Assembly: GCA_027450145.1 (NCBI GenBank)
Contig: DAIDKH010000041.1
Coordinates: forward strand, 1 to 39,826
DNA length: 39,826 bases
Origin: Chthonomonadaceae bacterium
GTDB taxonomy: Bacteria > Armatimonadota > Chthonomonadetes > Chthonomonadales > Chthonomonadaceae
Direction: 5' to 3'
The translations under genes and the position numbers were made by a program. The notes beneath the pieces are model-generated. The model saw nothing but the letters and a program-made list of their open reading frames with translations, did no database searches and was not told the origin of the DNA. Numbering within the stretch: the first letter of the stretch is position 1; every line of letters starts with the position of its first letter. Below are positions 2,138 to 39,253 of the stretch, in pieces.

Positions 2138-2188
2138 AATTGTTGTGATCTACTTTGCACTGCGAGCAAACGCTCGCTTGGGAGACCA

Positions 2189-2281: not shown

Positions 2282-2310
2282 TGCCTCGGTGACATTTAAG
2301 CCAGGTTGCC

Positions 2311-2345
2311 GCCATCGTCCGTACGAAAATGGACGATGGCTTTTT
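2311..2345 (+). terminator. Intrinsic terminator/attenuator in front of thrS
   Basis: GCCATCGTCC (2311-2320) and GGACGATGGC (2331-2340) form a perfect 10-base-pair stem with a 10-base loop, followed at once by TTTTT. It sits 19 bases before the thrS start codon, between promoter and gene, so it can only act as a regulated stop for thrS. No coding gene lies upstream on the same strand that it would otherwise serve. Confidence 0.85.
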
Positions 2346-2363
2346 ATTTGGGAGTGAGAAATC

Positions 2364-6381: not shown

Positions 6382-6388
6382 AGCTCCG

Positions 6389-7327
6389 ATGAAAGACGAC
6401 AATTCCAGCATTACAAATCTGTTAGAGACCGAACAGCGCAACGAGCGCACACAGAATATGGATGCATTGGACACCGATGCTCTGGTGCGTCTGCTTTTTG
6501 AAGAGACAGTCGATGTTCGCAATGCAATTGAAAGCACTCTACCTCGCTTAACGGAGTTAATATCTGTAGTTGCAGGCTCTATAAACAACGGTGGGCGGTT
6601 GATCTATATTGGTGCTGGAACGAGCGGGCGTTTAGGTGTGCTCGATGCGAGCGAGTGTGCTCCTACATTTTCAGTTCCGGCTGGCACGGTTCTTGGGTTG
6701 ATTGCGGGAGGAAATTCCGCGCTTACTGAGGCTGTAGAGGGTGCAGAGGATGATGAAACCGCAGGTAGCGATAGCGTCTTAAACCTGAATGTTAATTCTA
6801 AAGACGTGTTAATTGGTATCGCAAGCAGCGGTAAAACCCCTTATGTTATGGGCGCATTAAAACGGGCGAGAATGTTAGGAGCGACAACAGCCGTAATTGT
6901 AAATGTAAATGAGTCGCCGCTGAGGGCTTATGCAGATTTCTATATTGCAGCTATAACCGGGCCTGAGCCGTTAACTGGTTCCACCCGAATGCGCGCTGGT
7001 ACAGCGCAAAAGCTCATTCTTAACCTCATTTCCACCTCGGTCATGGTAAAGAATGGGCGAGTATTTGGCAACCTTATGGTTGATGTTCATGCGTCTAACG
7101 TAAAGCTCCGAGATAGAGCAGTTCGCATTGTAGCAGCAGCGGCACACGTTACGCATTCCGATGCGCAGAAGGCACTGGGGCTGTGCAACTGGCGATGTAA
7201 ACCCGCGATCATCATGCTCGCAGCCGGTATTTCCGCGCACGGTGCCGAAACCGCATTGAACGCACATGGCGGAAACATTCGAGCATGCTTGCACTCTATA
7301 CTAGGGGATGCTGCAGCCCAGCTGTGA
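6389..7327 (+). CDS. murQ: N-acetylmuramic acid 6-phosphate etherase
   Basis: A 312-residue SIS-domain enzyme that cleaves the lactyl ether of MurNAc-6-phosphate to give GlcNAc-6-phosphate and D-lactate in peptidoglycan recycling. GAGTSGRLGVLDASEC contains Glu89 and EGAEDDE contains Glu120, matching the catalytic acids Glu83 and Glu114 of the E. coli enzyme; ASSGKTPYV is the second sugar-phosphate loop; the C-terminal helical lid is complete. I chose ATG 6389, 7 bases after the glycosyltransferase stop, because a start further upstream would lie inside that gene. No PTS MurP or AnmK is nearby. Confidence 0.95.
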   Translation: MKDDNSSITNLLETEQRNERTQNMDALDTDALVRLLFEETVDVRNAIESTLPRLTELISVVAGSINNGGRLIYIGAGTSGRLGVLDASECAPTFSVPAGTVLGLIAGGNSALTEAVEGAEDDETAGSDSVLNLNVNSKDVLIGIASSGKTPYVMGALKRARMLGATTAVIVNVNESPLRAYADFYIAAITGPEPLTGSTRMRAGTAQKLILNLISTSVMVKNGRVFGNLMVDVHASNVKLRDRAVRIVAAAAHVTHSDAQKALGLCNWRCKPAIIMLAAGISAHGAETALNAHGGNIRACLHSILGDAAAQL

Positions 7328-7339
7328 TTTATTTCACAG
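7322..7339. promoter_or_regulatory. CRP/FNR-family-like palindrome
   Basis: CTGTGATTTATTTCACAG is a dyad with perfect 6-base arms that matches TGTGA-N6-TCACA. It overlaps the murQ stop codon, about 115 bases before the foldase start, and is followed by TTGACG at 7344. It could be a regulator site for the foldase gene or simply a short terminating hairpin of murQ. Confidence 0.35.
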
Positions 7340-7455
7340 TATATTGACGAAAATGTGAAGTTTACGGTATTCGAGAAACAACGAATTATGGAACAAGATT
7401 ACTTGGCAATCAACAGTAGGGCCGTGGGATCTAACCCATCATGGAGAAGTAATTA

Positions 7456-8508
7456 ATGGAAGCTGGCAGCGCGCAACCTGAGAAGAGTTCCGCTCCCGTA
7501 CGTCGTCGAACCGCAAGGCCCGGTCCTGTAGTTGCTCCGCCCCCCATCCCGCGGACGCGGTTGGTAATCATGGCTGCCGCAATACTCATTGTAGGTGTGG
7601 GGATAGGTGGTGTGATTGAGAGGCAGAGGCACAAGTCGCAGGATATTGTGGCCGTAGTGAACGGAAACATTATACGTAAGCAATTTTTCTACCATCGTCT
7701 CGAACAGACTGCGGGCGTACCAGTGATTCGATCTCTAGTTGACGATCAGATGATTCTTGCCTACGCTAAGTCGCTCAATCTACTTCCTTCGGATAAGTTG
7801 GTAGATGCGGCTGTTAAGGACGTAACGGTTAATCCCAATTTCCTGAAGCAGCTTCAGCAAAAATTTGAGACACCGGACGAACTGAAGTATGACCTTCGTG
7901 TGCAGCTTGCCAAGGCTGCTGTGCTATCTAAGGGTGCACCCGTTACCGATGCTCAGATGCAGGCATATTACTATAAAAATGCCGATCCACACACTCCTAA
8001 CGCACTTTTCTATCACCCTGAGCAAGCAAATATTGCTATCATAGTCACTTCCACAAGTAAGGCGGCATATGATGCGCAACATGACTTGCTGCTAGGTGTA
8101 TCATTTTCCGACGTTGCACACAAATACAGTGTGGACTCGAGCGCCGCCAATGGAGGGCTGCTCAAGGCGCCAGTCCTGCAGGGAGGACCTGCGGCCAAGA
8201 TACCTGGTCTACTCCCCTTAGTGTTTGGAACTCCGATTGGCCAAACAACCACTCCACATGAGTTTGTAATCAACGGGACTCCCAGCTGGTGGATCATTAG
8301 AGTACTGGATCACGAGAATACCCATACAGATCCCTTTAACCTTGTGCGAGAACAGTGTCGCATTGGCGTTATGATGAGCAGAGTAACCGCAAGTTCACAG
8401 CTATCTGTAGACCGCGCATTTAACGAGTGGAAGAAGAAGAATATTACTGCGCAGGCATTCTGGCCGCAGTATAGCTCAACAATTGCGGCAATGACAGGAG
8501 GCAGTTAG
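7456..8508 (+). CDS. Membrane-anchored PpiC/SurA-type peptidyl-prolyl isomerase
   Basis: A 350-residue foldase. A short basic, Pro-rich cytoplasmic tail is followed by one membrane segment (about residues 36-54), then a SurA_N-like helical chaperone region (VAVVNGNIIRKQFFYHRLEQ onward) and a rotamase domain around residues 190-280 containing FSDVAHKYSVDSSAANGG, the parvulin core. It probably helps exported proteins fold outside the inner membrane. GGAGAAG at 7443-7449 supports ATG 7456. Its position just before the surface-protein array suggests, without proof, that those proteins may be clients. Confidence 0.85.
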   Translation: MEAGSAQPEKSSAPVRRRTARPGPVVAPPPIPRTRLVIMAAAILIVGVGIGGVIERQRHKSQDIVAVVNGNIIRKQFFYHRLEQTAGVPVIRSLVDDQMILAYAKSLNLLPSDKLVDAAVKDVTVNPNFLKQLQQKFETPDELKYDLRVQLAKAAVLSKGAPVTDAQMQAYYYKNADPHTPNALFYHPEQANIAIIVTSTSKAAYDAQHDLLLGVSFSDVAHKYSVDSSAANGGLLKAPVLQGGPAAKIPGLLPLVFGTPIGQTTTPHEFVINGTPSWWIIRVLDHENTHTDPFNLVREQCRIGVMMSRVTASSQLSVDRAFNEWKKKNITAQAFWPQYSSTIAAMTGGS

Positions 8509-9577: not shown

Positions 9578-9684
9578 TATTCTAATTCAAGGGCACAAAC
9601 ATTAAAATTCGTAGCTTTCTGCGTGGTGCCTCATGGTAAAAGTATCTCTTAATTCAGTTTGTTTTGTAATGTATGGGGGTAATC

Positions 9685-10272
9685 ATGAACAGACATCGAT
9701 TGTTGGCGGGTCTATTTGTCGGCGGTTTAACTTCAATTGGCCTTGCTTTATCCGCAGGCTCTGCCAGTGCTACCGTTCACTCGTTATCGTTTTCAGGTGA
9801 AGTGTTTCAGTATGCTGCGGGTGTTCTTAGTTCCACTAATGCAACGGTTCTGCTGTCATACGACCACAATCCGCTGCCAAATAGCACCCACAACTACACG
9901 TTGGATCTAAGCGGGAATCTATCTGGTGGCGGTAATTCCAATGGTCTATTGACAGGCATGCATTTTCAATTCAAGGACAACAATACCGTCATATTCTCTG
10001 GGACGGAAGCAGCGCCTGTGCAGTTCCATGTTGTAGGTAACTCTGCCGCGCTACTTGGCCAATATACCAATGGGGTAGCAATTAGTCCCGTTGCAGGCAT
10101 GGCTCCCAGCGGTTCGTTTAGCATTGGCCTTTCTGGGTGGAATGGCATCACTACGTCGGGAAGTGGCTCTGGTGGAACTTTTACAGTTGTGCCGGAGGCT
10201 GGTTCCTCGGCAGCAATGGCCCTTCTCATCGCAGGAGGATGTGTTGTGGGTTTGCGAAACAGACGCAAATAA
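9685..10272 (+). CDS. PEP-CTERM-like sorted surface protein, paralogue 2
   Basis: A 195-residue paralogue of the gene before it, with signal peptide (ending near ASAT), a beta-type body without cysteine, the block GLSGWNGITTSGSGSGG, and the C-terminal tag VPEAGSS, a hydrophobic stretch and RNRRK. ATG 9685 is preferred over an in-frame ATG four codons upstream because GGGGG precedes it at a good distance and it gives the 588-base length shared by all copies. Closest to paralogue 3. Exported, probably cut by an exosortase and released or attached at the cell surface; the exosortase is not in this window. Confidence 0.85.
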   Translation: MNRHRLLAGLFVGGLTSIGLALSAGSASATVHSLSFSGEVFQYAAGVLSSTNATVLLSYDHNPLPNSTHNYTLDLSGNLSGGGNSNGLLTGMHFQFKDNNTVIFSGTEAAPVQFHVVGNSAALLGQYTNGVAISPVAGMAPSGSFSIGLSGWNGITTSGSGSGGTFTVVPEAGSSAAMALLIAGGCVVGLRNRRK

Positions 10273-10295
10273 TGTGATAGTGTCCAAAGGTTATT

Positions 10296-10338
10296 CCCGA
10301 GGCAGTAGGGACGGCCTGGCTTCGTTACTGTCCTCGGG
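10296..10338. other. Long imperfect hairpin after paralogue 2
   Basis: CCCGAGG-CAGTA (10296-10307) pairs with TACTG-T-CCTCGGG (10326-10338), 12 pairs with one bulged base. There is no T-run, so it is a weak terminator at best or an mRNA 3'-end stabiliser. The rest of 10273-10536 holds nothing recognisable. Confidence 0.4.
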
Positions 10339-10536
10339 GTGCCCGTGCAATATGTGCCATGGATGGCAGTTCCTCTTTGAGCAAAACATGCGTAATCCCG
10401 CGACATAAATTGAGATCTTTTAGCAGCAATCCCTTTAGTTTGTAAGTGCAAATGCAGCGACATACCGCTTAGAGCGACAGCATATGCGGACTACGAATTG
10501 AGTACTTGGGCTATTCTACAGTGGGTAACCAGCACG

Positions 10537-10563
10537 ATTACTTGCCACGCCACACCAAGTAAT
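10537..10563. promoter_or_regulatory. Inverted repeat directly upstream of the third sigma-54 promoter
   Basis: ATTACTTG (10537-10544) and CAAGTAAT (10556-10563) are perfect 8-base arms 11 bases apart, ending 8 bases before the -24 element. It is not seen at the other three promoters. Confidence 0.4.
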
Positions 10564-10571
10564 TATGCAAG

Positions 10572-10588
10572 TTGGCACACTTTCTGCA
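10572..10588 (+). promoter_or_regulatory. Sigma-54 promoter of PEP-CTERM-like gene 3
   Basis: TTGGCACACTTTCTGCA has GG at 10574-10575 and GC at 10586-10587, 12 apart, with the strong TTGGCAC -24 element. Predicted start near 10599, about 103 bases before the ATG. Confidence 0.83.
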
Positions 10589-10701
10589 CAAGCTCTTTAT
10601 GGGCACATATAAAATTGTAATCGCTCCCTGCCCGGTGCCTCTGCGTATAGAATAGATCTCGGATAATCAGTTAATTTGTTTGTAAAGTTAAGGGGAAGAA
10701 T

Positions 10702-11289
10702 ATGAAAAGACATCGAATTTTGACGGGTTTCATCGTCGGTGTTTTGGCTTCAATAAGTCTGTTGATGGCTGCTGGGGCTGCAAACGCGGCTGTCCACTCA
10801 CTCTCGTTTTCTGGCGAAGTGTTTAACTATAGTGGTGGTGTCCTGTCTTCTACAAACTCCACCGTTTTGCTGTCGTACGACCATAGTCCGGTTACCGTTG
10901 GGACACCCTATACACTCGATCTTACGGGTACTCTATCGGGCGGCGGAAACGCAAACGGTTTGCTCACGAATATGGTCTTTACGTTTAAGGATGGCGGGGG
11001 AAACACCGTATTCACAGGGAGCGAGGCAGGCCCAGCAGAATTTCACATTGTTGGAAATTCGGCAGCGATTCTGGGAAACTATATCGGCAACTCTACCAAC
11101 CCAATACCTGGCCTGGATCCCGGCGGATCGTTCTCTATAGGGCTGTCAGGCTGGAACGGCATCACCACCTCCGGTAGTGGCTCTGGTGGTACGTTCACCA
11201 CTGCGGTACCAGAGGCGGGCTCTTCAACTGCAATGGCTCTCCTGGTTGTTGGCGGATGCATTGTAGGTGTGCGCAACAGACGAAGATAA
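10702..11289 (+). CDS. PEP-CTERM-like sorted surface protein, paralogue 3
   Basis: Third 195-residue copy: basic MKRHR n-region and signal peptide ending near ANAA, beta-type body, GLSGWNGITTSGSGSGG, then VPEAGSS, a hydrophobic helix and RNRRR. AGGGG lies 8 bases before the ATG. Paralogues 2 and 3 share most of their N-terminal text (HSLSFSGEVF, STVLLSYDH), pointing to a more recent duplication of this pair than of copies 1 and 4. No cysteine, no enzyme motif; a structural or matrix role outside the cell is inferred from the sorting signal. Confidence 0.86.
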   Translation: MKRHRILTGFIVGVLASISLLMAAGAANAAVHSLSFSGEVFNYSGGVLSSTNSTVLLSYDHSPVTVGTPYTLDLTGTLSGGGNANGLLTNMVFTFKDGGGNTVFTGSEAGPAEFHIVGNSAAILGNYIGNSTNPIPGLDPGGSFSIGLSGWNGITTSGSGSGGTFTTAVPEAGSSTAMALLVVGGCIVGVRNRRR

Positions 11290-11313
11290 CTGGTTAAATT
11301 GCGGTACGTCTAC

Positions 11314-11346
11314 CCGTAAAGCAGTTGTGTATCAGCTGCTTTACGG
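11314..11346. other. Perfect hairpin after paralogue 3
   Basis: CCGTAAAGCAG (11314-11324) and CTGCTTTACGG (11336-11346) form an 11-pair stem with an 11-base loop. No T-run follows. It likely marks the mRNA 3' end. The remaining bases up to 11570 show no gene or other clear signal. Confidence 0.5.
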
Positions 11347-11570
11347 ACAACTTGTAAACTAACGCAGTGGGCAGGTTGCGATCTTGGTAAATTTGAATTC
11401 TATCGACGCTGCACATATTGGTCACAGTGCGCTGCTTACCAATCTAACGGTGCTCGCCGTATGGCGTTTACCTGCGACATCGGCTAAAGTTGTGGTGATC
11501 TACAACAGAATGTCGAACCGAATTGGTTGACGTGGTGAGTAGACAAACATCAATCTAGTAAATATGCAGG

Positions 11571-11587
11571 TTGGCATAGTAAATGCG
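11571..11587 (+). promoter_or_regulatory. Sigma-54 promoter of PEP-CTERM-like gene 4
   Basis: TTGGCATAGTAAATGCG has GG at 11573-11574 and GC at 11585-11586, 12 apart. The final position differs from the consensus W. Predicted start near 11597, about 88 bases before the ATG. Confidence 0.78.
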
Positions 11588-11684
11588 AACCATTCATTTA
11601 AGCACAATTACTATGTTGTAATTGATGAGTACGAGGAAGTAGCACTGCAATTTCGGTCTCTGGTTTAATGCTAGGAGAACTAAC

Positions 11685-12272
11685 GTGAACGCAACTCGAC
11701 TTATTACTGGTTTCTTTCTGTGCGCAATAACCTCTGTATGCTTTCTCATGTCTGCTCCGGCTTATGCAAGTGGTCATTCTCTTTCATTCGCTGGTGGGCT
11801 TTTTAATTACAGCAGCGGAACATTTTCCAGCACGGGCTCTACCATCGTTCTATCCTCCGACGGATCTCTGGTGGCTACAGGTAGTCCGTACACGCTCGAT
11901 TTTATTGGGATGCTCACGGGAGGTGGCAACACAAACGGCGTGCTCTCCAATGTAGTGTTCGATATCAAGAATTCTAGTGGTACAACGGTGTTTGCAGGAC
12001 AGGACGCCTCTCCTGCGATGTTTGTGGTATCTGGTCAATCGGCCGCGGTGCTGGGTTCATTCACCACCACGACGGCGCTGTCGCCGGTTGCAGGAGTGAC
12101 TCCTGGAGGTTCTTTTGCTATCGCCTTATCTGGGTGGAATGGCGTTACGACATCTGGTAGCGGGTCGGGGGGGACGTTCTCTACGCCTGTACCAGAGGCT
12201 GCCTCGTCCGCGGCAATGGCCTTGTTGCTTGTAGGTGGAACACTCGCAGGTATTCGACGTAAGGGCAGGTAA
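11685..12272 (+). CDS. PEP-CTERM-like sorted surface protein, paralogue 4
   Basis: Fourth 195-residue copy. The start codon is GTG (11685) with AGGAG about 6 bases before it. Signal peptide ends near AYAS; the body resembles paralogue 1 more than 2 and 3 (HSLAF/HSLSFAGG.FNYS, FTTTTA.SPVAG); the C-terminus is VPEAASS, a hydrophobic segment and RRKGR. It keeps the GLSGWNG-type block as ALSGWNGVTTSGSGSGG. Exported and probably processed by an exosortase-like enzyme. It has its own promoter and a downstream stem-loop, so it too is a single-gene unit. Confidence 0.85.
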   Translation: MNATRLITGFFLCAITSVCFLMSAPAYASGHSLSFAGGLFNYSSGTFSSTGSTIVLSSDGSLVATGSPYTLDFIGMLTGGGNTNGVLSNVVFDIKNSSGTTVFAGQDASPAMFVVSGQSAAVLGSFTTTTALSPVAGVTPGGSFAIALSGWNGVTTSGSGSGGTFSTPVPEAASSAAMALLLVGGTLAGIRRKGR

Positions 12273-21154: not shown

Positions 21155-22396
21155 ATGAGCAACCTTAGCCGTCGCTCCGTTATTGGTTCTTTACTGGCCG
21201 GTGGAACGGCCGCAGTGTTGGGCACATCCGCCACGGATGCGCGTTCCCAGGGGACCGCTTACAATGGTTACAACAGGCCGTTACCGGCTGATTGGAGCAT
21301 CCCGTTCGACCCGTCCGCAACGCGGCCAACGTGGTACCCTCGCAACCTGCCAACGCCTGGTGAGGTGATACATGAGTATAACATTGAGGTCATTCTCACT
21401 CCTCACGAAATATTGCCCATGGCGCACTTCCCCGCCTACACGTACAATGGCACGGTCCCGGGCCCCGAGTTACGAGTGAGAGAGGGTGATTGGGTTAAAG
21501 TTAACCTCCTGAACAAAACCCACGACTTTCATACAATCCACTGGCACGGCGTGGACGTTAAATGCGAAATGGACGGGGTTCCATTTAGTACGCAGTACCC
21601 AGTGGGTTACAATCAGACATTCCAGTACCTGTTCCGTGCGCAGCCAGCAGGAACTCACTTTTATCATTGCCACCAAATGACCAACCTACATGTTCAGGCA
21701 GGTCTTTACGGCGCAATCATTATCGAGAGTGCGGTTGATCCAGTTAAACAGCAGTTTCCATACACGCGCGACTATACCATGGTGTTGAGTGAAGTCGACA
21801 CGGCATTTGTGGAAGCTCAGATTAACGATATGGAACTCATGGGTACTCAGATGGATTACATGAGCAGGTCCCCCGAGATGATGGCCAAGATGAGCGGCGA
21901 GATGATGGGCTGGTTTGCATCCAAAGAGGCGTTCATGAGTGCTATTAAATCCGGTTGGATACCCCCTTACGCTTCAAGTGTGGCGGGTAAGTTTCGCCAA
22001 ATTCAGCCAAACTTTTTCATGATTAATGGGAAGAGCTATCCGATGGCAGAACACATACGCATCAAGCGAGGCGAATTAATTCGAATTCGACTCATTGGAG
22101 CCGGAATGATGCCACACTTCATGCACCTCCACGGTCACAATTTCTGGCATGTATGCCAGGATGGTGCTCCGTTGCAATGCCCTGTTCAGATGAACACTAT
22201 TCCGGTGTTTCCTGGAACCACCTGCGACATTATCGTTGAAGGTACCAATCCGGGTAACTGGCATTTCCACGATCATAGTGATCTATGTCTTACTAACAAT
22301 GGGGCGTCTCCTGGCGGAATGATGACGATGCTGATGTACGATGATGCTGCTGCCGAGGGTTTCACGTTTCCAGAGGTACTTACACTCAATTCTTAA
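21155..22396 (+). CDS. Two-domain multicopper oxidase (T1 site in domain 1)
   Basis: A 413-residue exported oxidase. The N-terminus SRRSVIGSLL is a Tat-type signal. Domain 1 has HTIHWHG (His126-His131) and GTHFYHCHQMTNLH with Cys172 as the T1 cysteine; domain 2 has HFMHLHGH (His321-328) and WHFHDH (His370-374). In domain 2 the HxH pair is H-F-H, so the second T1 cysteine is missing, as in type C two-domain laccases that keep only the domain-1 blue copper. A Met-rich linker (residues 226-251) recalls CueO and CopA and suggests Cu(I) oxidation. The next gene starts 14 bases after its stop. Confidence 0.9.
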   Translation: MSNLSRRSVIGSLLAGGTAAVLGTSATDARSQGTAYNGYNRPLPADWSIPFDPSATRPTWYPRNLPTPGEVIHEYNIEVILTPHEILPMAHFPAYTYNGTVPGPELRVREGDWVKVNLLNKTHDFHTIHWHGVDVKCEMDGVPFSTQYPVGYNQTFQYLFRAQPAGTHFYHCHQMTNLHVQAGLYGAIIIESAVDPVKQQFPYTRDYTMVLSEVDTAFVEAQINDMELMGTQMDYMSRSPEMMAKMSGEMMGWFASKEAFMSAIKSGWIPPYASSVAGKFRQIQPNFFMINGKSYPMAEHIRIKRGELIRIRLIGAGMMPHFMHLHGHNFWHVCQDGAPLQCPVQMNTIPVFPGTTCDIIVEGTNPGNWHFHDHSDLCLTNNGASPGGMMTMLMYDDAAAEGFTFPEVLTLNS

Positions 22397-22410
22397 AGGA
22401 GCACACCAGG

Positions 22411-23652
22411 ATGTGGTGGTTAACAACTAAACGCAATAGTTTGCAGGCGGTCGCGGCTGCCATTTGTGTATTCACCTGGGGTGCGCAGGCAAAAGCCCAG
22501 GTGCAACACACTCCGGTTCCGGAGCAGCCATCATTGGCGCCGCAACTGGAAATCGATGGCAGTGGTATCGCAACGCTGGAAGGCAGGTTCCCAGAACATA
22601 ACGCCCCTGGCGGCGGTAAGATCAGTACATCACGAATCAACTTTTCCGATTCGTCACTTGTGATTGGTGCATCTCAGCGCCTATACCGCGGTGGTGGAAT
22701 CGGCAGCCTGGTCTTGGGGGTTACGACCTCAGATAACAGCTTAAATTCCACAGGCACGGGCCTTTTTCTGCATCAGGCTTACCTAGACTACGCAACAAAC
22801 CCTCTTGAGGCAGTGATCGGGCGAACTGACGTTCCTACGCAGCTTATCACGTTCCCAACCCTTCGCGGCGACGATCTTGTAGAGTTTACTGGGGTTCTTG
22901 ATCCTTTTTCATCTGGTGGCAACGTACAGGAACATAGGTACAGTAACCAGGTGGCAGTCACCTTCAACAAGAACCTCAGGTATTTTCTCAATCTTCATGC
23001 ACAGCATCTCATAGACTCCACTGGTGCTGGAGGAGACCAGACAGGTATTAACTCTTATGGCGCAACATTTATGTATCAGGGAGCGCCGGTACTAGCGGAC
23101 ATGGAGCGAGTACCGCAGTGGGGGGTGGGTGTAGAAGAACAGGAGATTCCCGGAAGTAAGGGCGGCGCAGATACCGCACTGTACGGAGGAGTCGTATGGA
23201 ACATCAAATCTGACCCTATCGACAGGTTTGATCTACGATTCCAGGATACCTATACCACCGGAAACTCTCTCAAAACGTTTGGAGACATAGCAGACACCTA
23301 TCGCGCCGCGGCCAACAGTGCTGCGATGTCTTTCAGGTATCTGCACAGTCCGTTCGGACGCCCGGCGTACCAGGTGGCTCTAACGCTGGGATTACGAACA
23401 TACCAGAACGTCCCAAACAGCTCCTCCTTTGCCATCGCGCTAACAGGAGTGAAAAGGCTAGGTGAGGGCTTCGATCTGATAGCGCAGTATTCCTATCAAC
23501 ATTGGGCATCCGCTGGCGCTGCAGTTTTTGGTGGTCCCGATAACAATACCATTCAACTGGGCTTTGCTTACAACTTTACTGACACGTTCAACCAGCACAT
23601 TGCCCCTCGCCGGTCGCTGCTTAGCCTGCAGCACCAATATATACCGGAGTAA
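22411..23652 (+). CDS. Outer-membrane beta-barrel protein of the copper cluster
   Basis: A 413-residue exported protein with a signal peptide ending near AKAQ and a body of amphipathic strands rich in Gly, Asn, Tyr and aromatic girdle residues (ALYGGVVWNIK, FDLIAQYSYQHW, IQLGFAYNF). It looks like a 14-16 strand porin or CopB-type barrel, though no family signature is certain. AAAGGAG 10 bases before the ATG supports the start. It lies between the multicopper oxidase and the YtkA-like protein with 14- and 3-base gaps, so it very likely belongs to the same metal-handling operon. Confidence 0.7.
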   Translation: MWWLTTKRNSLQAVAAAICVFTWGAQAKAQVQHTPVPEQPSLAPQLEIDGSGIATLEGRFPEHNAPGGGKISTSRINFSDSSLVIGASQRLYRGGGIGSLVLGVTTSDNSLNSTGTGLFLHQAYLDYATNPLEAVIGRTDVPTQLITFPTLRGDDLVEFTGVLDPFSSGGNVQEHRYSNQVAVTFNKNLRYFLNLHAQHLIDSTGAGGDQTGINSYGATFMYQGAPVLADMERVPQWGVGVEEQEIPGSKGGADTALYGGVVWNIKSDPIDRFDLRFQDTYTTGNSLKTFGDIADTYRAAANSAAMSFRYLHSPFGRPAYQVALTLGLRTYQNVPNSSSFAIALTGVKRLGEGFDLIAQYSYQHWASAGAAVFGGPDNNTIQLGFAYNFTDTFNQHIAPRRSLLSLQHQYIPE

Positions 23653-23655
23653 CCG

Positions 23656-24585
23656 ATGAAAACTAGAATTCTATTCATCAGTGGTGCCATCGTTGTGTGC
23701 GCGTTGTCAATGGTTGCGGTACCTGGCGCGGCAGCGGCAGGCGAAGCAATGACGGGATTAAAGGTACTTCAGCCAGTTAGGTCATTTGTTGTGTCGCCGC
23801 ACGAAGACTGGGCCAATCTTACGGGGTTTGGCTCCCAAAGCGACTACGTCAAGATGATGACACTTATGATGGTCTCAGGCTCTGGTATTACGGGCATGAA
23901 GGGTATGGATATGTCTCCTCGGGAGGCCTCCGGTTCTACAGGAATGACCGCGTCAGGGCAAGTAGATATGTGCAATGTACTTGTAAAGCCGGTTAAAGCT
24001 AAGCCCGTGGTAGGAGCCAACCCTTTGACCCTGCGAGTGACAGACGGTGCCGGCAAACCGCTGACCGGTATGAAGATGGTCGCTACGGTGAAAATGGCAG
24101 CAATGGATATGGGGGTTGCGCATCCCGAGGTGAAGGAGCGTGCCCCTGGTGAATACATACTGGTACCAACTTTCAGTATGAAGGGCAACTGGGACGTGAG
24201 TCTTAAGGGCACTGCAAACGGGATGACAATGTTGCAGCGAACGTACACGTTTGACGCCGGCAGTACCCAGGCGTGGGTACAGCCTGTAACGGACGTCGTC
24301 TTCACGGCAGTAGCACAGCGCCCATTGCGAGTGGGAGACAACACGCTGTTAATAAAGCTCACTACTCCAGAAGGTAAACCGTTAGACGATGTAAATGCAG
24401 AGGGAACAGTGTCGATGTTGACCATGAATATGGGAACCTCAACAGTGTCTGCTGTAAAGGGCCCAAGTGCGCAACTAACACTTACGGTCAATTTGGCCAT
24501 GACTGGAAAGTGGTCGGTTCTATTAAGAGCACTGCGCAATGGAAAAGTCGTTGCTACCAGATCAGTCATCCTTTCTGTGCCATAG
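23656..24585 (+). CDS. Exported Met-rich protein with two YtkA-like domains
   Basis: A 309-residue protein: signal peptide (about residues 1-28), a Met-rich stretch (VKMMTLMMVSG, MKGMDM) and two tandem immunoglobulin-like YtkA domains. Each repeat has the pattern vG-N-L-x-L-x3-x-GKPL, a strand with several Met (MKMVATVKMAAMDMG; VSMLTMNMG) and a closing GxW (MKGNWDVSLKG; MTGKWSVLLRA). YtkA/FixH-type domains are common in copper delivery or efflux loci, and the surface Met clusters fit Cu(I) binding. It is last in the cluster, 3 bases after the barrel gene. Confidence 0.8.
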   Translation: MKTRILFISGAIVVCALSMVAVPGAAAAGEAMTGLKVLQPVRSFVVSPHEDWANLTGFGSQSDYVKMMTLMMVSGSGITGMKGMDMSPREASGSTGMTASGQVDMCNVLVKPVKAKPVVGANPLTLRVTDGAGKPLTGMKMVATVKMAAMDMGVAHPEVKERAPGEYILVPTFSMKGNWDVSLKGTANGMTMLQRTYTFDAGSTQAWVQPVTDVVFTAVAQRPLRVGDNTLLIKLTTPEGKPLDDVNAEGTVSMLTMNMGTSTVSAVKGPSAQLTLTVNLAMTGKWSVLLRALRNGKVVATRSVILSVP

Positions 24586-31420: not shown

Positions 31421-34400
31421 TTAGCCTCGTGCGGCGTGCAGCCCCGTGATGTGCAGCGACACAATCTTGTCGTGTCCCACCTGTAGCCTTATCACCTTGC
31501 CTGAAATCGGATGGGTTCCCGGCATGGGCCTTTCGAGGATGTCAACTGGCTGCACTTTTACCTCGTTAGGAAAGTGCAGTGTCACAGTAGTGTTTCGACC
31601 GCGGGTTTCGAATACTCTAAGAACCAGTCCCCTGCCCGTCTCGTCATGTTTGAGGGCTCCGGCTGCTACATCATTGTAAGTTGACTGAAGCTGAACAGCG
31701 GCAGGTGTCGTGCCTCCGCTGTGTGTGCCTGTTACGACTGCAGACAACGGGATATTAATCGACTTACCCTGTTCTTCGAGATTCGCATTCTGCCAGTTTC
31801 CGGTATTCGTTGTGATACTGTAAGTGAACACTTCTTTACCGAAATCTGGTGTGGGATCTGGACTGCTGGTAGAACGCAGTAGACTTAGACGGAACCTGGA
31901 ACCATTGGCATCGTTACCGTTCTTGCTGTTGTTTAGAACCGTAACCCCATATATAGGGCGCCCTGGTGTAACATTGGCAAGCGCGGCACCGAAAATATGC
32001 ATTTGTGGGTTTACCGGCAGAATAACAGAGACTACACGTCCTTTAGTGGGTAGTTGTACGCGAGTGCCATAGATCTGGGTAGGCTGGGAGTGAGATCCGT
32101 CCGCTTCCAGGTGGTAGGGGAAGTGCAGCCAGGTTTCATCGGAAGCCGATCCTCCCGTAACCCAATCTGCCAGAAGGAGTTGCTTCACGATGTGTTGCCC
32201 AGTGGACATAACAAAGGTGACGCTGCCAGACTGTGTGCCCATTGCCCCGGCGCCTACCGCATAAAGCCATTCGCCCGGCGAGGAATTACCCAGTGGTATT
32301 GCCTGGCCGTTGCAGGCAATATTGTCATTGCCAGGTAACGAACCATGCAGCCACACGGGCAAGCGCTCTGCGCCAAGCTGATGGACACCCTGAGTCGGGA
32401 AGAGAGCGCGTACATAGGTACGACCCTGTCCGTCAAAATCCTTGGAACTGTCCGAATTAAAGAACGAACGGATCTGTAAGAGGTGAGCATTCCTGACAAC
32501 TGCATTGGTGTAGTCGGTCATGTTCATCCAGGATTGCCCCGGATTCTCCTGGCCGTTATCTGGTCGATTTATGCTGCCATATGGAATAGACACATGAAGC
32601 GCCGGGTTTGCCATGTTATACGTGAAGTCGACCTTCAGCATTTGCGCGTGCTCATGCCAGTCTACCACGCATGGAATGTCTAGTCGGTCGACATTTTGAT
32701 AGAGCGTAATATACTGGCGGTACACTGACGCACCAAGAGAATGTACTACCTCTACCTCAGCAAACACTGGCCCACTGGAGATCAGCCGTACTTTGGCTCC
32801 CTGATGAATGAGGAGTGTGTTTTTACCAGTGTAATTGATATCCCAGGCATTGCCCTGATCACCAAGCAGCTCGAATACATTTTGTGGCTTACCTGGTTGC
32901 AGTACCTGTCTGCCTGTCCGCATATCGGTCAGCGAATCCAGTAAGCCGCTGCTGCGATTTACAACAGCCTTTAGATATCCATTGCGCAAAACGATTGTTC
33001 CGCCTAGTGTTTTGGTAACAAGAGTTGGGTGAACCGTTGCGGAAAGCGGTGACAACCAATAAACCTTCTTCCCAAATCCTGGGACATTTGATGCGACAAA
33101 AACGAGTGTGTGTGCGTCCTTTTCCTGCACAGGATAGCGTGACCCAGAGGCATCGCGAACAGAGTGATATTTTTGTGCGGAAGGCACCGTTACAGTCGCG
33201 ACATCGGTTCGGGTGGTAGAAAGTGCATTCCATACCACGACGGGCTGTTCACCCCTGCGCGTACCGAGTGTAGAGGTATGATCGGTTAACACTGTAAGTG
33301 CAGTGTGTTGCTGCCGCCGTGCCCAAACGTCAGCCGGCCGTAAGCGATTGCGCATCCAAATGTAGGTTGAATGGATTGCGCTTCCGCACATTATGTCGTG
33401 AAATTGCGCAAAGGCAGTCGGCTTCCATGCTGTGCGGAATGCTTTAGTTGGATATTTCATGCCGACCGTAGATGCCAGCGACGAGTAAACCTCCGATGAA
33501 TAGAGTTGATTCTCATTACGGCGTACCGCGGTTTTGAGATCAGCATGTGTGGTGTAACAACCTGTGAACGTGTATTGCAGATCGGTATCCACAACGGGCA
33601 GCGTTCGCACCGCGGGCTCGTGCCGAAGCAGGTTGAAGAAAGTTTTTGCTGTGCAGAACCTGATTTTTGGCAGTAGAGGATCTGCCTGGTAGGCTTTACC
33701 GGTAAGAATCTGCTGTCTGGTCGGTCCGCCGCCGTGATCGCCTACACCAAAGACTACCAAAGCGCGTTTAACATCGTACTTTTTTTGGTTATGCCACGGG
33801 CGCACGAGTTGATCAATCTGAATGGGCTCGTCGTAGCTGTCAGTGTTTGCCTTTAACACCTTAGACCCATCGGGTGATTCCCACCATGCTAATCGCACAC
33901 CATCTCCACATCGCATGTGGTAGAAACTGTTGATGCCTGCAAGTCGCATGAGCTGCGGAAGTTGCCAGGAATGGCCAAAGGAGTCTGGAAGCCAGCCAGT
34001 TACTGCATACGTGCCGAAGTTCTTTTTGAAATAGCGTTGACCAAGCAGGAAGGAGCGAGCCAGCCCCTCACCTGTGGGGAGGTTGGTGTCAGATTCATTC
34101 CATAAGCCACCGACAACCTCCCATTGTCCCCTCTTCTGAGCAGCCTCCATTGCAGCCACCTCTGCCGGGTACCGCTTCTGAATGGCGGCATAGGCACCGG
34201 GTTGGCTCTGCACAAAGCAGAAATCTGGAAACAGCTTCATGAGGTGTAGAACGCTTCTCCACGTGCGCTTACAAGTATCAATCGTGTCGGACCATGGCCA
34301 CAACCAGTTCATGTCAATGTGAGCGTGGCCCACATAATCTACTTCGTAGCCTTTGGCAAAGCCCTTTAAGGCCAGTAATGGCTGGCGTGCGTAGGCAAGG

Positions 34401-35065
34401 CGTTGTTCAAACTGCGCGCTTGTAATGTTATGCAGAGTTGGTAGGTTTAGCCTTGTGGCACACTGCTGTAACGCGGCGGAGATAAGCATGGCCTTTTGTA
34501 CTGGTTCATTCGGCTCCAGCTCTTCGAAAAAGGCCGTTTCCTGCTGTAACTGATCCAATTGTGGCAGGCTTAGCCCCAGGTAAGCAAAGTGCAACTGCCC
34601 GGGACCGGTAATGTTGATTCCACGAATGGCTATGACGTATTTACGACCGGGTACGGCTTCACGAGTAAGGATCATGGTTCCGTCGTTCCACTTAAATGTC
34701 TGCTGCTGCATGCCATTCACGTAGATTTCACCGGCGTCATCTACCCCTGCGTCCAGGCGAAGAGGCTGCCCCGCCGTGGGAATACCGGCAATTTCGGCAG
34801 GGAGCACAATGGTTTTACGAAACCACACTTTGGTGTGATCGCCTTGCCATTGATATCCTGTTTGGACTTTTGGCCAACTGGAATCGTTGTAGGAAGGCTG
34901 CTCGCCACCGGAGATGTCTGGCTGATGAAACCTCCAGGTGTTCAGAGGCATTAGCAGCCTGGTTTGCAGCTGCGAAAGCTGCTTCGATAGTGGCAGCGGC
35001 TGCTGAGCCTGACAGACAGATCCTGCAAGGATCAGCAGTGCGGCCGCAGGTAATAGTCGTCGCAT
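31421..35065 (-). CDS. Secreted GH38 family alpha-mannosidase-like glycosidase
   Basis: A 1214-residue exported enzyme. After a signal peptide (1-20, VCQA-QQ) come an N-terminal jelly-roll sugar-binding domain (about 40-165, WFRKTIVLP, AGEIYVNG) and a GH38 catalytic domain: GHAHIDMNWLWPW with zinc ligands His249 and Asp251, GGLWNESDTNLP, GWLPDSFGHSWQ with nucleophile Asp361, FGVGDHGGGPT and FHDIMCGSAIH; a long C-terminal beta region completes it. GH38 enzymes cleave alpha-mannosides. Most bacterial members are cytoplasmic, so secretion suggests attack on external mannose-containing glycans. The precise linkage is not predictable. Confidence 0.92.
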   Translation of the reverse strand: MRRLLPAAALLILAGSVCQAQQPLPLSKQLSQLQTRLLMPLNTWRFHQPDISGGEQPSYNDSSWPKVQTGYQWQGDHTKVWFRKTIVLPAEIAGIPTAGQPLRLDAGVDDAGEIYVNGMQQQTFKWNDGTMILTREAVPGRKYVIAIRGINITGPGQLHFAYLGLSLPQLDQLQQETAFFEELEPNEPVQKAMLISAALQQCATRLNLPTLHNITSAQFEQRLAYARQPLLALKGFAKGYEVDYVGHAHIDMNWLWPWSDTIDTCKRTWRSVLHLMKLFPDFCFVQSQPGAYAAIQKRYPAEVAAMEAAQKRGQWEVVGGLWNESDTNLPTGEGLARSFLLGQRYFKKNFGTYAVTGWLPDSFGHSWQLPQLMRLAGINSFYHMRCGDGVRLAWWESPDGSKVLKANTDSYDEPIQIDQLVRPWHNQKKYDVKRALVVFGVGDHGGGPTRQQILTGKAYQADPLLPKIRFCTAKTFFNLLRHEPAVRTLPVVDTDLQYTFTGCYTTHADLKTAVRRNENQLYSSEVYSSLASTVGMKYPTKAFRTAWKPTAFAQFHDIMCGSAIHSTYIWMRNRLRPADVWARRQQHTALTVLTDHTSTLGTRRGEQPVVVWNALSTTRTDVATVTVPSAQKYHSVRDASGSRYPVQEKDAHTLVFVASNVPGFGKKVYWLSPLSATVHPTLVTKTLGGTIVLRNGYLKAVVNRSSGLLDSLTDMRTGRQVLQPGKPQNVFELLGDQGNAWDINYTGKNTLLIHQGAKVRLISSGPVFAEVEVVHSLGASVYRQYITLYQNVDRLDIPCVVDWHEHAQMLKVDFTYNMANPALHVSIPYGSINRPDNGQENPGQSWMNMTDYTNAVVRNAHLLQIRSFFNSDSSKDFDGQGRTYVRALFPTQGVHQLGAERLPVWLHGSLPGNDNIACNGQAIPLGNSSPGEWLYAVGAGAMGTQSGSVTFVMSTGQHIVKQLLLADWVTGGSASDETWLHFPYHLEADGSHSQPTQIYGTRVQLPTKGRVVSVILPVNPQMHIFGAALANVTPGRPIYGVTVLNNSKNGNDANGSRFRLSLLRSTSSPDPTPDFGKEVFTYSITTNTGNWQNANLEEQGKSINIPLSAVVTGTHSGGTTPAAVQLQSTYNDVAAGALKHDETGRGLVLRVFETRGRNTTVTLHFPNEVKVQPVDILERPMPGTHPISGKVIRLQVGHDKIVSLHITGLHAARG

Positions 35066-35136: not shown

Positions 35137-35691
35137 TTATTTGAACAGAGGTAGCAGTGCGCGAAATTCCAATGTACCCGCCTTCTCTAACAGCTCGTAC
35201 ACGACGCTTTCCACGCAAGTTAGTACAACTCCGGCATTCTCTAAACGACGTAGCGCAGTCTTATGTCGCGCAGGGGTTCGGGCTGTAACCGCATCGCAGA
35301 CAACGAACGGTTGAAATCCGCAGTCAAGAAGATCAAGGGCGGTTTGGCAGACACATATGTGTGACTCCACTCCGCACAGGACGATCTGACTTCGATTAAG
35401 TTTCTGAATAGCCAATCGGGCGTTTACGTCTGCCATGACGCTAAAATGAAGCTTATCGAGAATTGCAGAATTGTTGGGCAATGCCTCTGCCACGCCTGCA
35501 ACGAGGCCACCGAGCCGCTCAGCATTCTGAGTTGTTGCGGTGACAGGCAAATTCAATACCGAAGCAGCTTTTAAAAGCCGAACACATTCGGTTTCAACCA
35601 GGCTCGCATCGTGCTGTATTGCCAGCAGTTTGGCCTGCATGTCAATGACCAGCAGCTGAGCAGTTCGAATGTTGAGTGTACTGCGCGGCAT
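35137..35691 (-). CDS. Isochorismatase-like cysteine hydrolase
   Basis: A 184-residue alpha/beta hydrolase of the isochorismatase-like family, closest in form to YcaC-type members. The catalytic triad is Asp17 (VIDMQ), Lys80 (LDKLHFSV) and Cys113 in GVESHICVCQTA, the family's cis-peptide loop. Members act on amides, nicotinamide or isochorismate; the substrate here is unknown. AAGGGAG about 11 bases upstream supports the ATG. It precedes the mannosidase gene on the same strand by 71 bases. Confidence 0.92.
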   Translation of the reverse strand: MPRSTLNIRTAQLLVIDMQAKLLAIQHDASLVETECVRLLKAASVLNLPVTATTQNAERLGGLVAGVAEALPNNSAILDKLHFSVMADVNARLAIQKLNRSQIVLCGVESHICVCQTALDLLDCGFQPFVVCDAVTARTPARHKTALRRLENAGVVLTCVESVVYELLEKAGTLEFRALLPLFK

Positions 35692-35968: not shown

Positions 35969-36748
35969 CTACCGAGAGTATCCTCGCGCCACATCCTTTA
36001 GCGCCTGTGCAAACCGTAGGATTGCAGGATACCGGTGGATGTCCATCATATCGGGTGATGTACCAGCGTTACCCCAATCCTCTGTAAACGCGGCTGTGTA
36101 CCCACCTCGGTACACGTCAGTGGCTACCCGCAAGTCATGTACATCACACGGGTAAACAAATGCGACTACGGGAGTGTTGAGGTGAACCTCTATGGAGCGC
36201 CGGGAGACAGCAAGCTCCTTCATAATCTGAGCGTTGGTCAGCAGGCGGATGTTCTCAGGGTGACTTGCCGTTAGGCTCTCCACCGTGGCGAGACCGCTCT
36301 TCTGCATTGCCTTCAACATTGCCCACGTGTTGTGCCGCTTGTCCGTGGTTACCCCAACGTATGCTGTGTGCACAAACATCGTGAATGGCAGATGATACTT
36401 CCTGAGGATTGGAAATGCATTCCGGTAGATGCCTTGATTGTTATCGTCAAAAGCCAACATCAATGGGCGAGAGGGCACCGGTGCGCCATGAATAAGGTGG
36501 TTAAGCAGCTGCTGCAGGGTTATTACATGGAAATGCCCTGCCCTAATCTCAGCAATTTGCTTGTCGAACACCGATGTGTAGGTGTCAAACCATACAGTTT
36601 TTTTACTAACTACATCATGCCACACCAACACGGCTAGGTACGGTTTGGCGGCTGCGGCGCAGGGTTTAGGCAGCGCCTGTGCGCCACACAGGAGCGGAAG
36701 CAAGCTACCAGCAAGCCCGAGAATTGCCGTAAGTTTACCTGTGCCCAT
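35969..36748 (-). CDS. Exported NodB-like protein with a lost zinc ligand
   Basis: About 259 residues with a signal peptide and a polysaccharide-deacetylase (CE4) fold closely related to the NodB part of the fusion gene two positions away. Motif 1 is AFDDNN (Asp101-Asp102) instead of TFDDG; motif 2 reads SLTASHP, so the first His of SHxxxHP is Leu159 while His163 remains; motif 3 is YPCDVHD. The Asp-His-His metal site is therefore incomplete and deacetylase activity is doubtful; it may bind glycan or assist its partner. ATG 36748 shares a base with the phosphatase stop (TGATG), showing coupled translation. Confidence 0.85.
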   Translation of the reverse strand: MGTGKLTAILGLAGSLLPLLCGAQALPKPCAAAAKPYLAVLVWHDVVSKKTVWFDTYTSVFDKQIAEIRAGHFHVITLQQLLNHLIHGAPVPSRPLMLAFDDNNQGIYRNAFPILRKYHLPFTMFVHTAYVGVTTDKRHNTWAMLKAMQKSGLATVESLTASHPENIRLLTNAQIMKELAVSRRSIEVHLNTPVVAFVYPCDVHDLRVATDVYRGGYTAAFTEDWGNAGTSPDMMDIHRYPAILRFAQALKDVARGYSR

Positions 36749-37416
36749 CAAGCGTGCACTCCGGAGGAGACGGGCTTGGGAGCGAATTTTTTGACTGTTC
36801 CACTTAATCGCACCCATACAGGGTTAAAACCATACTTGCGCATCTCCTTGTAAGCGCGGGCATATGTCCATCCTTGGTACTTTTCACGGTAGATTCCCAC
36901 CATGCATCCTGTTCTATCCGCACCGTGCTGGCAGTGAACATAGACTCTGGCTGCGGACTTATCGCGCGCCAATCGCAGCCAGGTTGCGATCTGCTTGGGC
37001 GTGGGCGGATCTCCGCTCATGGGCAAATTCACGTACGTCATCCCCAGAGATTTAACAACCTTGCGTTCGGCACGCACATGCATTGGGGCTATGCGCAGGT
37101 CGATTACGGTCTTGACGCCAGCGCTCTTTAGCTCTTCGAAACCCTTCTTGGTAGGTGCGCCGCCGCGTAATATTGTTTGGGTAACCATGGCAAAGTTGGG
37201 AACATCGGCTCTGGTAATATCGGGTTTTGGCCACTGCACCGGATGAACACTGACAGCCTTTGCCACTGCGGATGCCGAGGCGGGAACTGGTGCTGCTGAC
37301 ACCGCAGGCGCCGATTTGGAGCTATTGCAGCCAACCAACATAGTGATTGCAGCGAAGCTAAGGCTGAACAGGGGCAGCATTAGATTGCGTTGAAACCGAT
37401 GCCGTGGGTGATTCAT
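36748..37416 (-). CDS. Lipoprotein dual-specificity/tyrosine phosphatase
   Basis: A 222-residue protein with a lipoprotein signal (MLVGC, Cys30), a low-complexity Ala/Pro/Ser linker and a cysteine-phosphatase domain. HCQHGADRTG is the CX5R catalytic loop with Cys162 and Arg168; Asp136 in MSGDPP may be the general acid. Because of the lipobox the domain should face the periplasm or outside, unusual for this family, so the substrate could be a phosphorylated glycan, lipid or exported protein. AAGGAAG precedes the ATG. It overlaps the fusion gene by 59 bases at its start and the pseudo-NodB gene by one base at its stop. Confidence 0.88.
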   Translation of the reverse strand: MNHPRHRFQRNLMLPLFSLSFAAITMLVGCNSSKSAPAVSAAPVPASASAVAKAVSVHPVQWPKPDITRADVPNFAMVTQTILRGGAPTKKGFEELKSAGVKTVIDLRIAPMHVRAERKVVKSLGMTYVNLPMSGDPPTPKQIATWLRLARDKSAARVYVHCQHGADRTGCMVGIYREKYQGWTYARAYKEMRKYGFNPVWVRLSGTVKKFAPKPVSSGVHA

Positions 37417-39253
37417 GGGGCTTCCTTATGTGATGGTGGTGACTCTTCCTAATGTACCGCGTATGTGTCCTAAAATAGTTCCGGGCACCACCAGTACTGT
37501 CGGCCGAAAGGGCGTCATTGAGAGTTGCCGCGCCGGGGCCGGCTGCCGGAAGCGCCCAGGAAGGTGGTGGGGGCGCGCTTGCATCCACGTTGCCAATAAG
37601 GAAGAGTGCGTGCGGAACAGGGCGACTGGGTACACCTGGCTGGGAATGACCCGATACAAGTATTCGGTTTTTCCAGATAAGTGAGGTACTAAAACCGGAG
37701 TCAAGTAACCACGCCTCTTGTATATGCATGCGAACCAGCATCGCCGCTAATTGTATGCAGTTTATACTGTCTTGTGTTGCACCCAGCACATATCGGTTCT
37801 GCGCGTCGATACCTATAAACGCCCGGTGCCTGGGATCAATATAATCTGAGGAGGACCACCGCGCCATTTCGGCAGGGGAGAGAGCGGCGCCATAATGGAC
37901 GATCCAGCCGCCTGCAACAAATGCGTCTTCGACATCCGGCATCATCTGTTGCAGCACTCGCAACGATCCTCCCAAATGTGCGGTGTAGGGGAACACGAGG
38001 CATTCGTGTTTACTGAACAGAATAAGAGGTCGTCCTTCTATGCGGCTGTTGTCACCTGGATCTACCTTCTCGTAGACATGGTTGACGGAACTTAGGCATG
38101 GACCGATCATGGCGCCACCGGTACCCGCAATGCGTGCATCTGCAAAAAAGGTACCATTCAATGCAGCCTGTGCTTTGGCCTTCAGCGCCATTTCACCTAC
38201 AGTTTGCCGAGTATCAAGCGCCTCGGTTGTGAGGTCCCCTCCCGCCAGCCACATTACCGGAAATGGACCATTGGTAAAGGTGCCAAATGTAACGGGGGCA
38301 TCGCCGTCAACTGCGATCATTCGAGATGGCGGCGGAGCCATTGGAACAAGACCGTTCCAAGTATTGATTATCTCATTAACGCGCTTCGGTGTAAAACGAG
38401 GCATGAAAAATGCCTGTGCGGGGCTGACTGTCCAGCCCCGATCCATAGTGAATGCTGCCAGGTAGCCTGCCCGTCGCGCGGCGCTACTTACTGCAGCATC
38501 GCACGTGCCACTTGGGTACGCAAGGAAGAGTACTTTATGTCGCAGTTTGGTTTCCAAAGTAGCTCGCGACTGCTGCAACTCCTCATCGAGCCTGTTGGGC
38601 GTCAGTATGGTCATGTCCTCAGGATGCGTAACAGTATGTGACTCTACCGTTATTAAACCTGTGGCTTCTGCCTCGCGAAGCTGTTGCCACGACATATGCT
38701 GCTTTTCAGTGGTAGTACCCACGTACCCTGTCTGCACAAAAAAGACTGCCGGGAAGTGGTACTGTTCTAGAATGGGGAGTGCCTGAGTATATTGACCCAG
38801 TGTGCAGTCATCAAAGGTGAGAAGAATGGGGCGGTCCGGAAGCTTTGAACCAGAGGCAAAATGGTCATAGTACTGCTGAATGGTAATTGGATGCGCATGC
38901 GCGGCGGAAAGAGCCGCCATCTGCTGGGCGAATTCATCCGTAGTCAGGTCGAACCACACCTGCTTCTGCGGTACCACATCGTGGTACATGATCACGGGCA
39001 CAGCCATCGTTCCGTGCACCAGCAAGTTAGGCGCACCTTCGGTGACATCCACTATAGTGGTCGGGTCGGCAGGGGACGACGAACCTGTGAGGCTGTTTCG
39101 CAATTTGGAGGCACTCCAGCCCTTTATGCCTAAGCCAGTTCCTAGTAACCCAAAGCCAATAACTGCAATGACAATAAGTAGGATGGTGAGACCAACGTTA
39201 TCACGTCGTTGTTTTCGTTTCATGCCCCTAATCACGCGGCGTTCGTCAGTCAA
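37358..39253 (-). CDS. Polysaccharide deacetylase fused to a phosphodiester glycosidase (NAGPA) domain
   Basis: A 631-residue membrane-anchored protein: basic tail, one membrane segment (about residues 21-44), a NodB/CE4 domain (about 80-310) with intact LTFDD (Asp148-149), SHTVTHP (His206, His210) and LAYPSGTCD, then a NAGPA-like domain (about 325-560) with NGTFFADARIAG, AFIGIDAQNRYV and LLDSGFSTSLIW, and a His/Arg-rich tail. CE4 enzymes remove N- or O-acetyl groups from glycans; NAGPA domains cleave sugar phosphodiesters. The fusion suggests remodelling of an acetylated, phosphodiester-containing surface polymer. The start is TTG with GGAG 8 bases upstream; ATG ten codons later is an alternative. 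Confidence 0.88.
   Translation of the reverse strand: MTDERRVIRGMKRKQRRDNVGLTILLIVIAVIGFGLLGTGLGIKGWSASKLRNSLTGSSSPADPTTIVDVTEGAPNLLVHGTMAVPVIMYHDVVPQKQVWFDLTTDEFAQQMAALSAAHAHPITIQQYYDHFASGSKLPDRPILLTFDDCTLGQYTQALPILEQYHFPAVFFVQTGYVGTTTEKQHMSWQQLREAEATGLITVESHTVTHPEDMTILTPNRLDEELQQSRATLETKLRHKVLFLAYPSGTCDAAVSSAARRAGYLAAFTMDRGWTVSPAQAFFMPRFTPKRVNEIINTWNGLVPMAPPPSRMIAVDGDAPVTFGTFTNGPFPVMWLAGGDLTTEALDTRQTVGEMALKAKAQAALNGTFFADARIAGTGGAMIGPCLSSVNHVYEKVDPGDNSRIEGRPLILFSKHECLVFPYTAHLGGSLRVLQQMMPDVEDAFVAGGWIVHYGAALSPAEMARWSSSDYIDPRHRAFIGIDAQNRYVLGATQDSINCIQLAAMLVRMHIQEAWLLDSGFSTSLIWKNRILVSGHSQPGVPSRPVPHALFLIGNVDASAPPPPSWALPAAGPGAATLNDALSADSTGGARNYFRTHTRYIRKSHHHHIRKPHESPTASVSTQSNAAPVQP

Follow-up and report, generated by a model that had tools for sequence, protein, structure and literature searches.

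We analyzed a 39,826-nt stretch of DNA (hereafter, the window; contig DAIDKH010000041.1) from a member of the Chthonomonadaceae (Armatimonadota), the (−) strand of which encodes three consecutive open reading frames (ORFs) with overlapping ends, designated genes A, B, and C in the order of reading. Gene A spans positions 37358–39223 when read from an ATG or extends to 39253 from a TTG (621 or 631 aa, respectively), gene B (36748–37416, 222 aa) starts 59 bp inside A, and the ATG of gene C (35969–36748, 259 aa) shares 1 base with the stop codon of B, the longest ORF of C starting at 36817. An earlier reading of the bare sequence (the original prediction) had described the same overlaps of 59 bases and 1 base, with A as a complete carbohydrate esterase family 4 (CE4) deacetylase fused to a phosphodiester glycosidase domain, B as a CX5R phosphatase with a lipobox, C as a CE4 homologue with a broken metal site, and all three proteins outside the cytoplasm; each of these descriptions is borne out by the ORF coordinates, domain matches, and residues given below. 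Specifically, an uncleaved N-terminal helix in A, the lipobox in B, and a signal peptide in C predict that all three products are extracytoplasmic. A PADLOC search of the unit returned no match to an anti-phage defence family, and the sole PHROG match, a weak one to gene C (1e-4), does not mark the unit as phage genes.

Gene A matches the Pfam families Polysacc_deac_1 (1e-24) and NAGPA (1.3e-7; 32.4 bits against a cut-off of 25). In its structure model (predicted local distance difference test [pLDDT] of 78, with both domains mostly above 80), an uncleaved hydrophobic helix at residues 10–30 precedes a NodB2-type CE4 domain (38396–39001, residues 75–276; TFDD at 136–139, HTVTH at 196–200) and a NAGPA, i.e., phosphodiester glycosidase, domain (37589–38257, residues 323–545). 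The working residues of NodB2 enzymes are the motif-5 His, the motif-1 Asp-Asp, the two motif-2 His, and a late-strand Arg (PMC8807736, PMC10967932), and A keeps all six (H81, D138, D139, H196, H200, and R276), which are invariant or nearly so in the A1 alignment and present in all 31 tabulated fusions wherever covered. IcaB (4wcj) and PplD (6dq3) are the nearest relatives of this half in both sequence and fold (TM score of 0.84–0.86 by target length). Against the curated NCBIfam models, A reaches 96.7 of the 321.9 bits required for PgaB and 68.9 of the 248.4 bits required for IcaB, and it does not qualify as an equivalogue of either.

NAGPA enzymes cleave sugar-1-phosphodiesters. The motifs of the NAGPA half of A (LNGTFF, R398-P399, R465/R467, LLDSGFSTS, and PSRPVPH) form invariant columns over 26 relatives, and its fold matches that of guinea-pig NAGPA (6pku; TM score of 0.72 by target length, E-value of 2e-14), with which the NG(T)FF, Arg, and LD-G-S columns align. 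By sequence the assignment to NAGPA is weak, but the fold makes it solid. As judged from these features, A is predicted to be an inner-membrane-anchored protein with two intact active sites, one of a NodB2 de-N-acetylase and one of a NAGPA phosphodiester glycosidase. The window's genome also encodes a second, stronger NAGPA-domain protein (contig C82, 5065–5520, in a 585-aa frame). Two Protein Data Bank (PDB) matches to a designed repeat protein (Tako8) were discarded as spurious.

The product of gene B matches the Pfam family PTP-NADK of the DSP/PTP type with a CX5R motif (1.2e-20; 74 bits against a cut-off of 27). Its catalytic loop, C162-QHGAD-R168 (36913..36933, [−] strand), lies within the sequence HCQHGADRTG, and an HCQ(H/Y)GADRTG loop is present in every relative of B that was read. 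The lipobox, L27-V-G-C30, is encoded at 37327..37338 on the same strand; a lipobox-like Cys recurs in the relatives from five genomes (G001, G010, G005, G003, and G044), and all other members of the family that were read carry a lipobox-like sequence or a signal peptide. Among PDB structures, B is related to PFA-DSP (1xri) and TpbA (4r0s; E-value of 3e-7).

Gene C also encodes a Polysacc_deac_1 protein (1.1e-15), the model of which (pLDDT of 91.4) matches the folds of IcaB, PgaB, and PplD. Five of the six NodB2 active-site residues are kept; the break is confined to a single ligand of the Asp-His-His metal triad, the first motif-2 His, which alignment shows to be replaced by Leu159 (H159L; codon at 36272..36274, [−] strand), and the second, His163, is retained (36260..36262, [−] strand). 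Between C and its counterpart in a congeneric genome (BP9.bin74), identity is 94% overall and 97.7% over the domain core, compared with 87% for A and 81% for B, making C the slowest-changing of the three genes. Only nonsynonymous differences were compared between the congeners since synonymous sites are saturated (proportion of synonymous differences of 0.7–0.85). The genes are under purifying selection, and decay of C to a pseudogene is ruled out by its open frame and its core identity; the latter marks C as a maintained pseudoenzyme. C probably performs no catalytic step, and its retained pocket residues and strong conservation are most simply read as signs of a role in binding glycan or modulating A.

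The loss of this ligand recurs far beyond the window. We define a companion as a standalone NodB protein related to the NodB-NAGPA fusions typified by A, and companions were tallied in a phylum scan of 291 genomes. Intact fusions were found in 61 Armatimonadota genomes, 55 of which also encode one companion; a single companion (G104) was seen without a fusion. Numbered as in C, H159 is lost in 52 of the 56 companions read, the four that keep it being those of G011, G027, G036, and G063. It has become Leu in six of the seven companions of family f1, to which C belongs, Gln in all 11 of f15, Gln together with D101A (once D101S) in all 33 of the Fimbriimonadaceae family f14, and Gln or Met together with D102Q and H163F in both of f17. 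Of the 56 companions, 54 retain H44, D102, H163, and R239, the exceptions being the two f17 proteins that have lost D102 and H163 (in two partial sequences, H44 falls outside the contig), and D101 is also kept in f1 and f15. In comparison, 40 of the 42 distinct fusions retain the residues of motifs 1 and 2 and, as far as the sequences extend, all remaining positions of the site, and all 40 of the other standalone NodB genes of the phylum that served as controls keep D101, D102, H159, and H163.

Genomes do not equal independent loss events, and f14 probably represents one loss inherited by 33 genomes. On the tree, companions fall into three groups among the fusions (support of 99 for the clade of C, 99 for the f14 clade, and 99 for an f5/f17 group; 100/97 elsewhere for the clade of C), and at least four changes are required to account for the loss of H159. 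The approximately unbiased test (p = 0.054) neither accepts nor rejects descent of the C and f14 companions from one origin. Among companions, the metal site has been lost on several independent occasions, whereas in the fusion it has nearly always been preserved. This recurrence, which is invisible from one sequence, is the more unusual point about C. In SZAS-5 (Fimbriimonadaceae; locus L093), a fusion (5776–7575) and an inactive companion (7572–8288) overlap by 4 bases, the companion starting inside the last codons of the fusion; therefore, the two are neighbours in a second lineage besides that of the window.

We found that the unit itself is conserved. The original prediction was to fall if the arrangement proved unique to this genome, but A, B, and C are contiguous and in the same order in four genomes (G000, the window's own, and G001, G010, and G003) from three genera of Chthonomonadaceae, among the family's genomes being the congener named above and Chthonomonadaceae clean12. 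Across these four, identities range from 62 to 87% for A, 47 to 81% for B, and 62 to 94% for C, at which the shared order is beyond chance. In a fourth genus (G005), A stands alone and B and C are paired elsewhere in the genome, and homologues of B are also unlinked in other genomes. A gap of 277 bp separates the unit from the next gene. Downstream on the same strand lie an isochorismatase-like gene (35137–35691) and a gene for a secreted GH38 alpha-mannosidase (1,214 aa; 31421–35065, [−] strand); these were considered as parts of the unit and left out, being kept beside it only in the congener.

Of the 64 loci from a scan of Genome Taxonomy Database (GTDB) species, 59 carry the NodB-NAGPA fusion, which occurs in Armatimonadota, cyanobacteria (Gloeobacterales and Synechococcus-like), and Meiothermus. 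Outside the unit, most fusions occur without a phosphatase and without conserved neighbours, and comparison of ORF families across the 64 loci revealed no recurrent partner gene. In family f5, NAGPA and NodB are separate genes in reversed order (L063 of G032, 2186–3109 and 792–2189, with a 4-base overlap; also L073 of G059), and these separate genes are the nearest relatives of both halves of A. The adjacency of the f5 genes indicates that the two activities have been linked more than once. In one genus of the window's family (g3; loci L028 and L029 of G004 and G015), the fusions have a ruined NodB half (TFDT or TFDM, with no HxxxH) and an intact NAGPA half; these are the two fusions set apart in the count above. 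Our literature search for NodB-NAGPA fusions found none.

Wall polymers are usually fixed to peptidoglycan via phosphodiester-linked N-acetylglucosamine (GlcNAc). To our knowledge, NAGPA is the only activity that cuts GlcNAc-1-phosphodiesters, and we know of no bacterial enzyme that edits the GlcNAc phosphodiester of a wall polymer by the NAGPA mechanism. The most likely function of A, B, and C is to edit, in the periplasm, a glycan containing phosphodiester-linked GlcNAc, which may be the unit that joins a wall polymer to peptidoglycan. Both halves of A would act on one kind of sugar, GlcNAc with its C1 in a phosphodiester, and the best candidate would be GlcNAc-1-P-6-MurNAc (MurNAc, N-acetylmuramic acid), by which LCP ligases fix a wall or secondary-cell-wall polymer to peptidoglycan; we propose this specific substrate tentatively, as a possibility rather than an expectation. 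Release of the polymer would fall to the NAGPA half and conversion of GlcNAc to glucosamine, which may protect the link, to the NodB half; B would strip the acceptor of its remaining phosphate or act on a comparable phosphomonoester. C, with its substrate pocket and without the metal, would bind the same glycan or A itself and thereby steer or limit A.

Published work on related enzymes is consistent with this scheme. PplD removes the acetyl group from the GlcNAc-1-P-6-MurNAc wall polymer link, making the bond acid-resistant (PMC8807736), characterised NAGPA acts on GlcNAc-1-P-6-mannose according to a statement cited within PMC12419801, and diderm Terrabacteria of the kind that host the fusion tether their outer membrane via SLH domains (PMC10628300). 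The window's genome encodes LCP and SLH proteins and a CsaB-like pyruvyl transferase, as the scheme requires. Also in its favour are the complete NodB2 site and the NAGPA fold of A, the second linkage of the two activities in f5, the loss of H159 in companions as opposed to intact fusions and controls, and the slow change of C. The original prediction had the three proteins edit a surface polymer together, first cutting the phosphodiester, then removing the phosphate, and then deacetylating the sugar. Its account of the anatomy, the location, and the broken metal site of C is upheld, and the unit is conserved; a single obligatory linear pathway of A, B, and C is not sustained, given the many fusions that lack a phosphatase, the cyanobacterial and Meiothermus fusions that lack a companion, the unlinked homologues of B, and a C that is probably not catalytic. 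The order is only one possibility; alternatively, deacetylating the linkage sugar may be in competition with the cut.

Several observations weigh against the editing of a wall polymer link. No wall-polymer gene adjoins the unit or recurs next to the fusions in the 64 loci, and LCP is so widespread in the phylum (93 of 101 genomes) that it does not serve as a discriminating marker. The NAGPA signature is altered in A, with DSGFST in place of DGGGS. The fusion occurs without any companion in nine cyanobacterial and Meiothermus genomes, and the f15 companions (L062, L065, L066, and L202–L210; Q159) have no signal peptide; they have apparently moved to the cytoplasm and therefore would not meet a periplasmic A. 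Finally, A resembles IcaB and PgaB just as much as it does PplD, and the substrate of IcaB and PgaB is poly-GlcNAc without phosphate.

The last point leads to the main rival, namely, processing of an exopolysaccharide resembling poly-N-acetylglucosamine (PNAG), in which the NodB half deacetylates secreted poly-GlcNAc as PgaB and IcaB do, the NAGPA half replaces the second domain of PgaB and trims a phosphodiester end or branch, and C binds PNAG. PgaB and IcaB are the best NCBIfam matches of both A and C, and in fold the two match IcaB best, but all the NCBIfam scores are far under the curated cut-offs, and no synthase or export gene adjoins the unit or recurs near the fusions. Moreover, PNAG has no phosphodiester, so that the NAGPA half is left unexplained, and we regard this account as rather unlikely.

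Three further explanations seem less probable still. The enzymes might scavenge phosphate and glycan, with A and B degrading environmental or own phosphodiester glycans (phosphomannan- or teichoic-like) such that NAGPA frees the sugar, B the phosphate, and the GH38 enzyme takes the mannose. The mannosidase downstream, kept in the congener, would suit this, as would the GlcNAc-P-6-mannose that Das reportedly described as the NAGPA substrate in 2013; however, GH38 does not adjoin the unit in the other two genera, the 277-bp gap intervenes, and in other phyla the fusion stands alone, making scavenging improbable. Equally doubtful is a signalling role in which B, as a TpbA-like periplasmic tyrosine or dual-specificity phosphatase, acts on a membrane regulator and never touches glycan, with A and C as the matrix-polysaccharide output: Pseudomonas TpbA is periplasmic and is among the structural relatives of B, but PFA-DSP/Siw14 inositol pyrophosphate phosphatases match B better, and no sensor or cyclase gene lies nearby. 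Lastly, there is little to expect from the idea that C and its relatives still work as enzymes through a changed metal site (Asp-His plus Leu or Gln), e.g., on another acyl group. The retention of the other site residues in 54 of 56 companions, with D101 in f1 and f15, argues for it, but the Asp-His-His triad is shared by every characterised NodB2 enzyme (PMC10967932, PMC8807736), and f14 has also lost the catalytic Asp in all 33 cases.

Elsewhere in the window, on the (+) strand, a multicopper oxidase, a 413-aa ORF without a Pfam match, and a YtkA/FixH-like protein are encoded in a row (21155–24585), and three consecutive ORFs of 199, 195, and 195 aa have no Pfam match (9673–12272).

Compared with known systems, the unit brings together domains of known kinds in an unusual set, and what would surprise a specialist is that companions were inactivated repeatedly. 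PplD, a NodB2 CE4 enzyme of Streptococcus pyogenes, shares with A the fold (TM score of 0.86 by target length), an N-terminal anchor, a motif-5 His placed first, the Asp-His-His triad, and the late-strand Arg, but it has no NAGPA domain and no phosphatase neighbour, and identity is only ~22%. IcaB and PgaB are the best sequence and fold relatives of the NodB domains of both A and C, and PgaB also has a second catalytic domain; however, that domain is a glycoside hydrolase, and the unit has no pga or ica locus and scores far below the family cut-offs. NAGPA/DUF2233 enzymes (the human uncovering enzyme and BACOVA_00430) resemble A in fold (TM score of 0.57–0.72 by target length) and in the NG(T/G)FF, Arg, and LD-G-S positions, whereas A is fused to NodB, carries DSGFST, is only ~14–16% identical, and has a predicted substrate. 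TpbA, which is periplasmic, and PFA-DSP/Siw14 share the CX5R fold and motif with B; unlike them, B is a lipoprotein with an HCQHGADRTG loop and sits in a unit of glycan enzymes.

For C, our search of the literature on CE4 pseudoenzyme pairs found only cases from Bacillus anthracis, i.e., the CE4 pseudoenzymes BA0150 and BA3943 and the inactive lipoproteins BA0330 and BA0331, which, like the predicted-inactive C, are envelope proteins of the NodB fold in which no deacetylase activity has been detected. BA0330 is needed for adaptation to salt stress and BA0331 for cell shape (PMC4505593), and these inactive proteins therefore set a precedent for a structural or regulatory role of an inactive NodB protein. 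Unlike C, BA0330 and BA0331 keep the metal triad; no B. anthracis case is paired with a NodB-NAGPA fusion, and repeated loss is not described there. It is conceivable, albeit rather unlikely as a whole, that the Armatimonadota fusion has a dedicated pseudo-deacetylase partner that arose or decayed several times, a dead NodB being of value for sensing glycan or as a partner in allostery, and that the two together edit the phosphodiester joining a surface polymer to peptidoglycan, an enzymatic step not known to have been described in any diderm. NAGPA fused to a PplD-like NodB would place both edits of phosphodiester-linked GlcNAc in one protein, and, whatever the substrate, the companions are a clear-cut example in nature of pseudoenzymes evolving repeatedly alongside an active paralogue.

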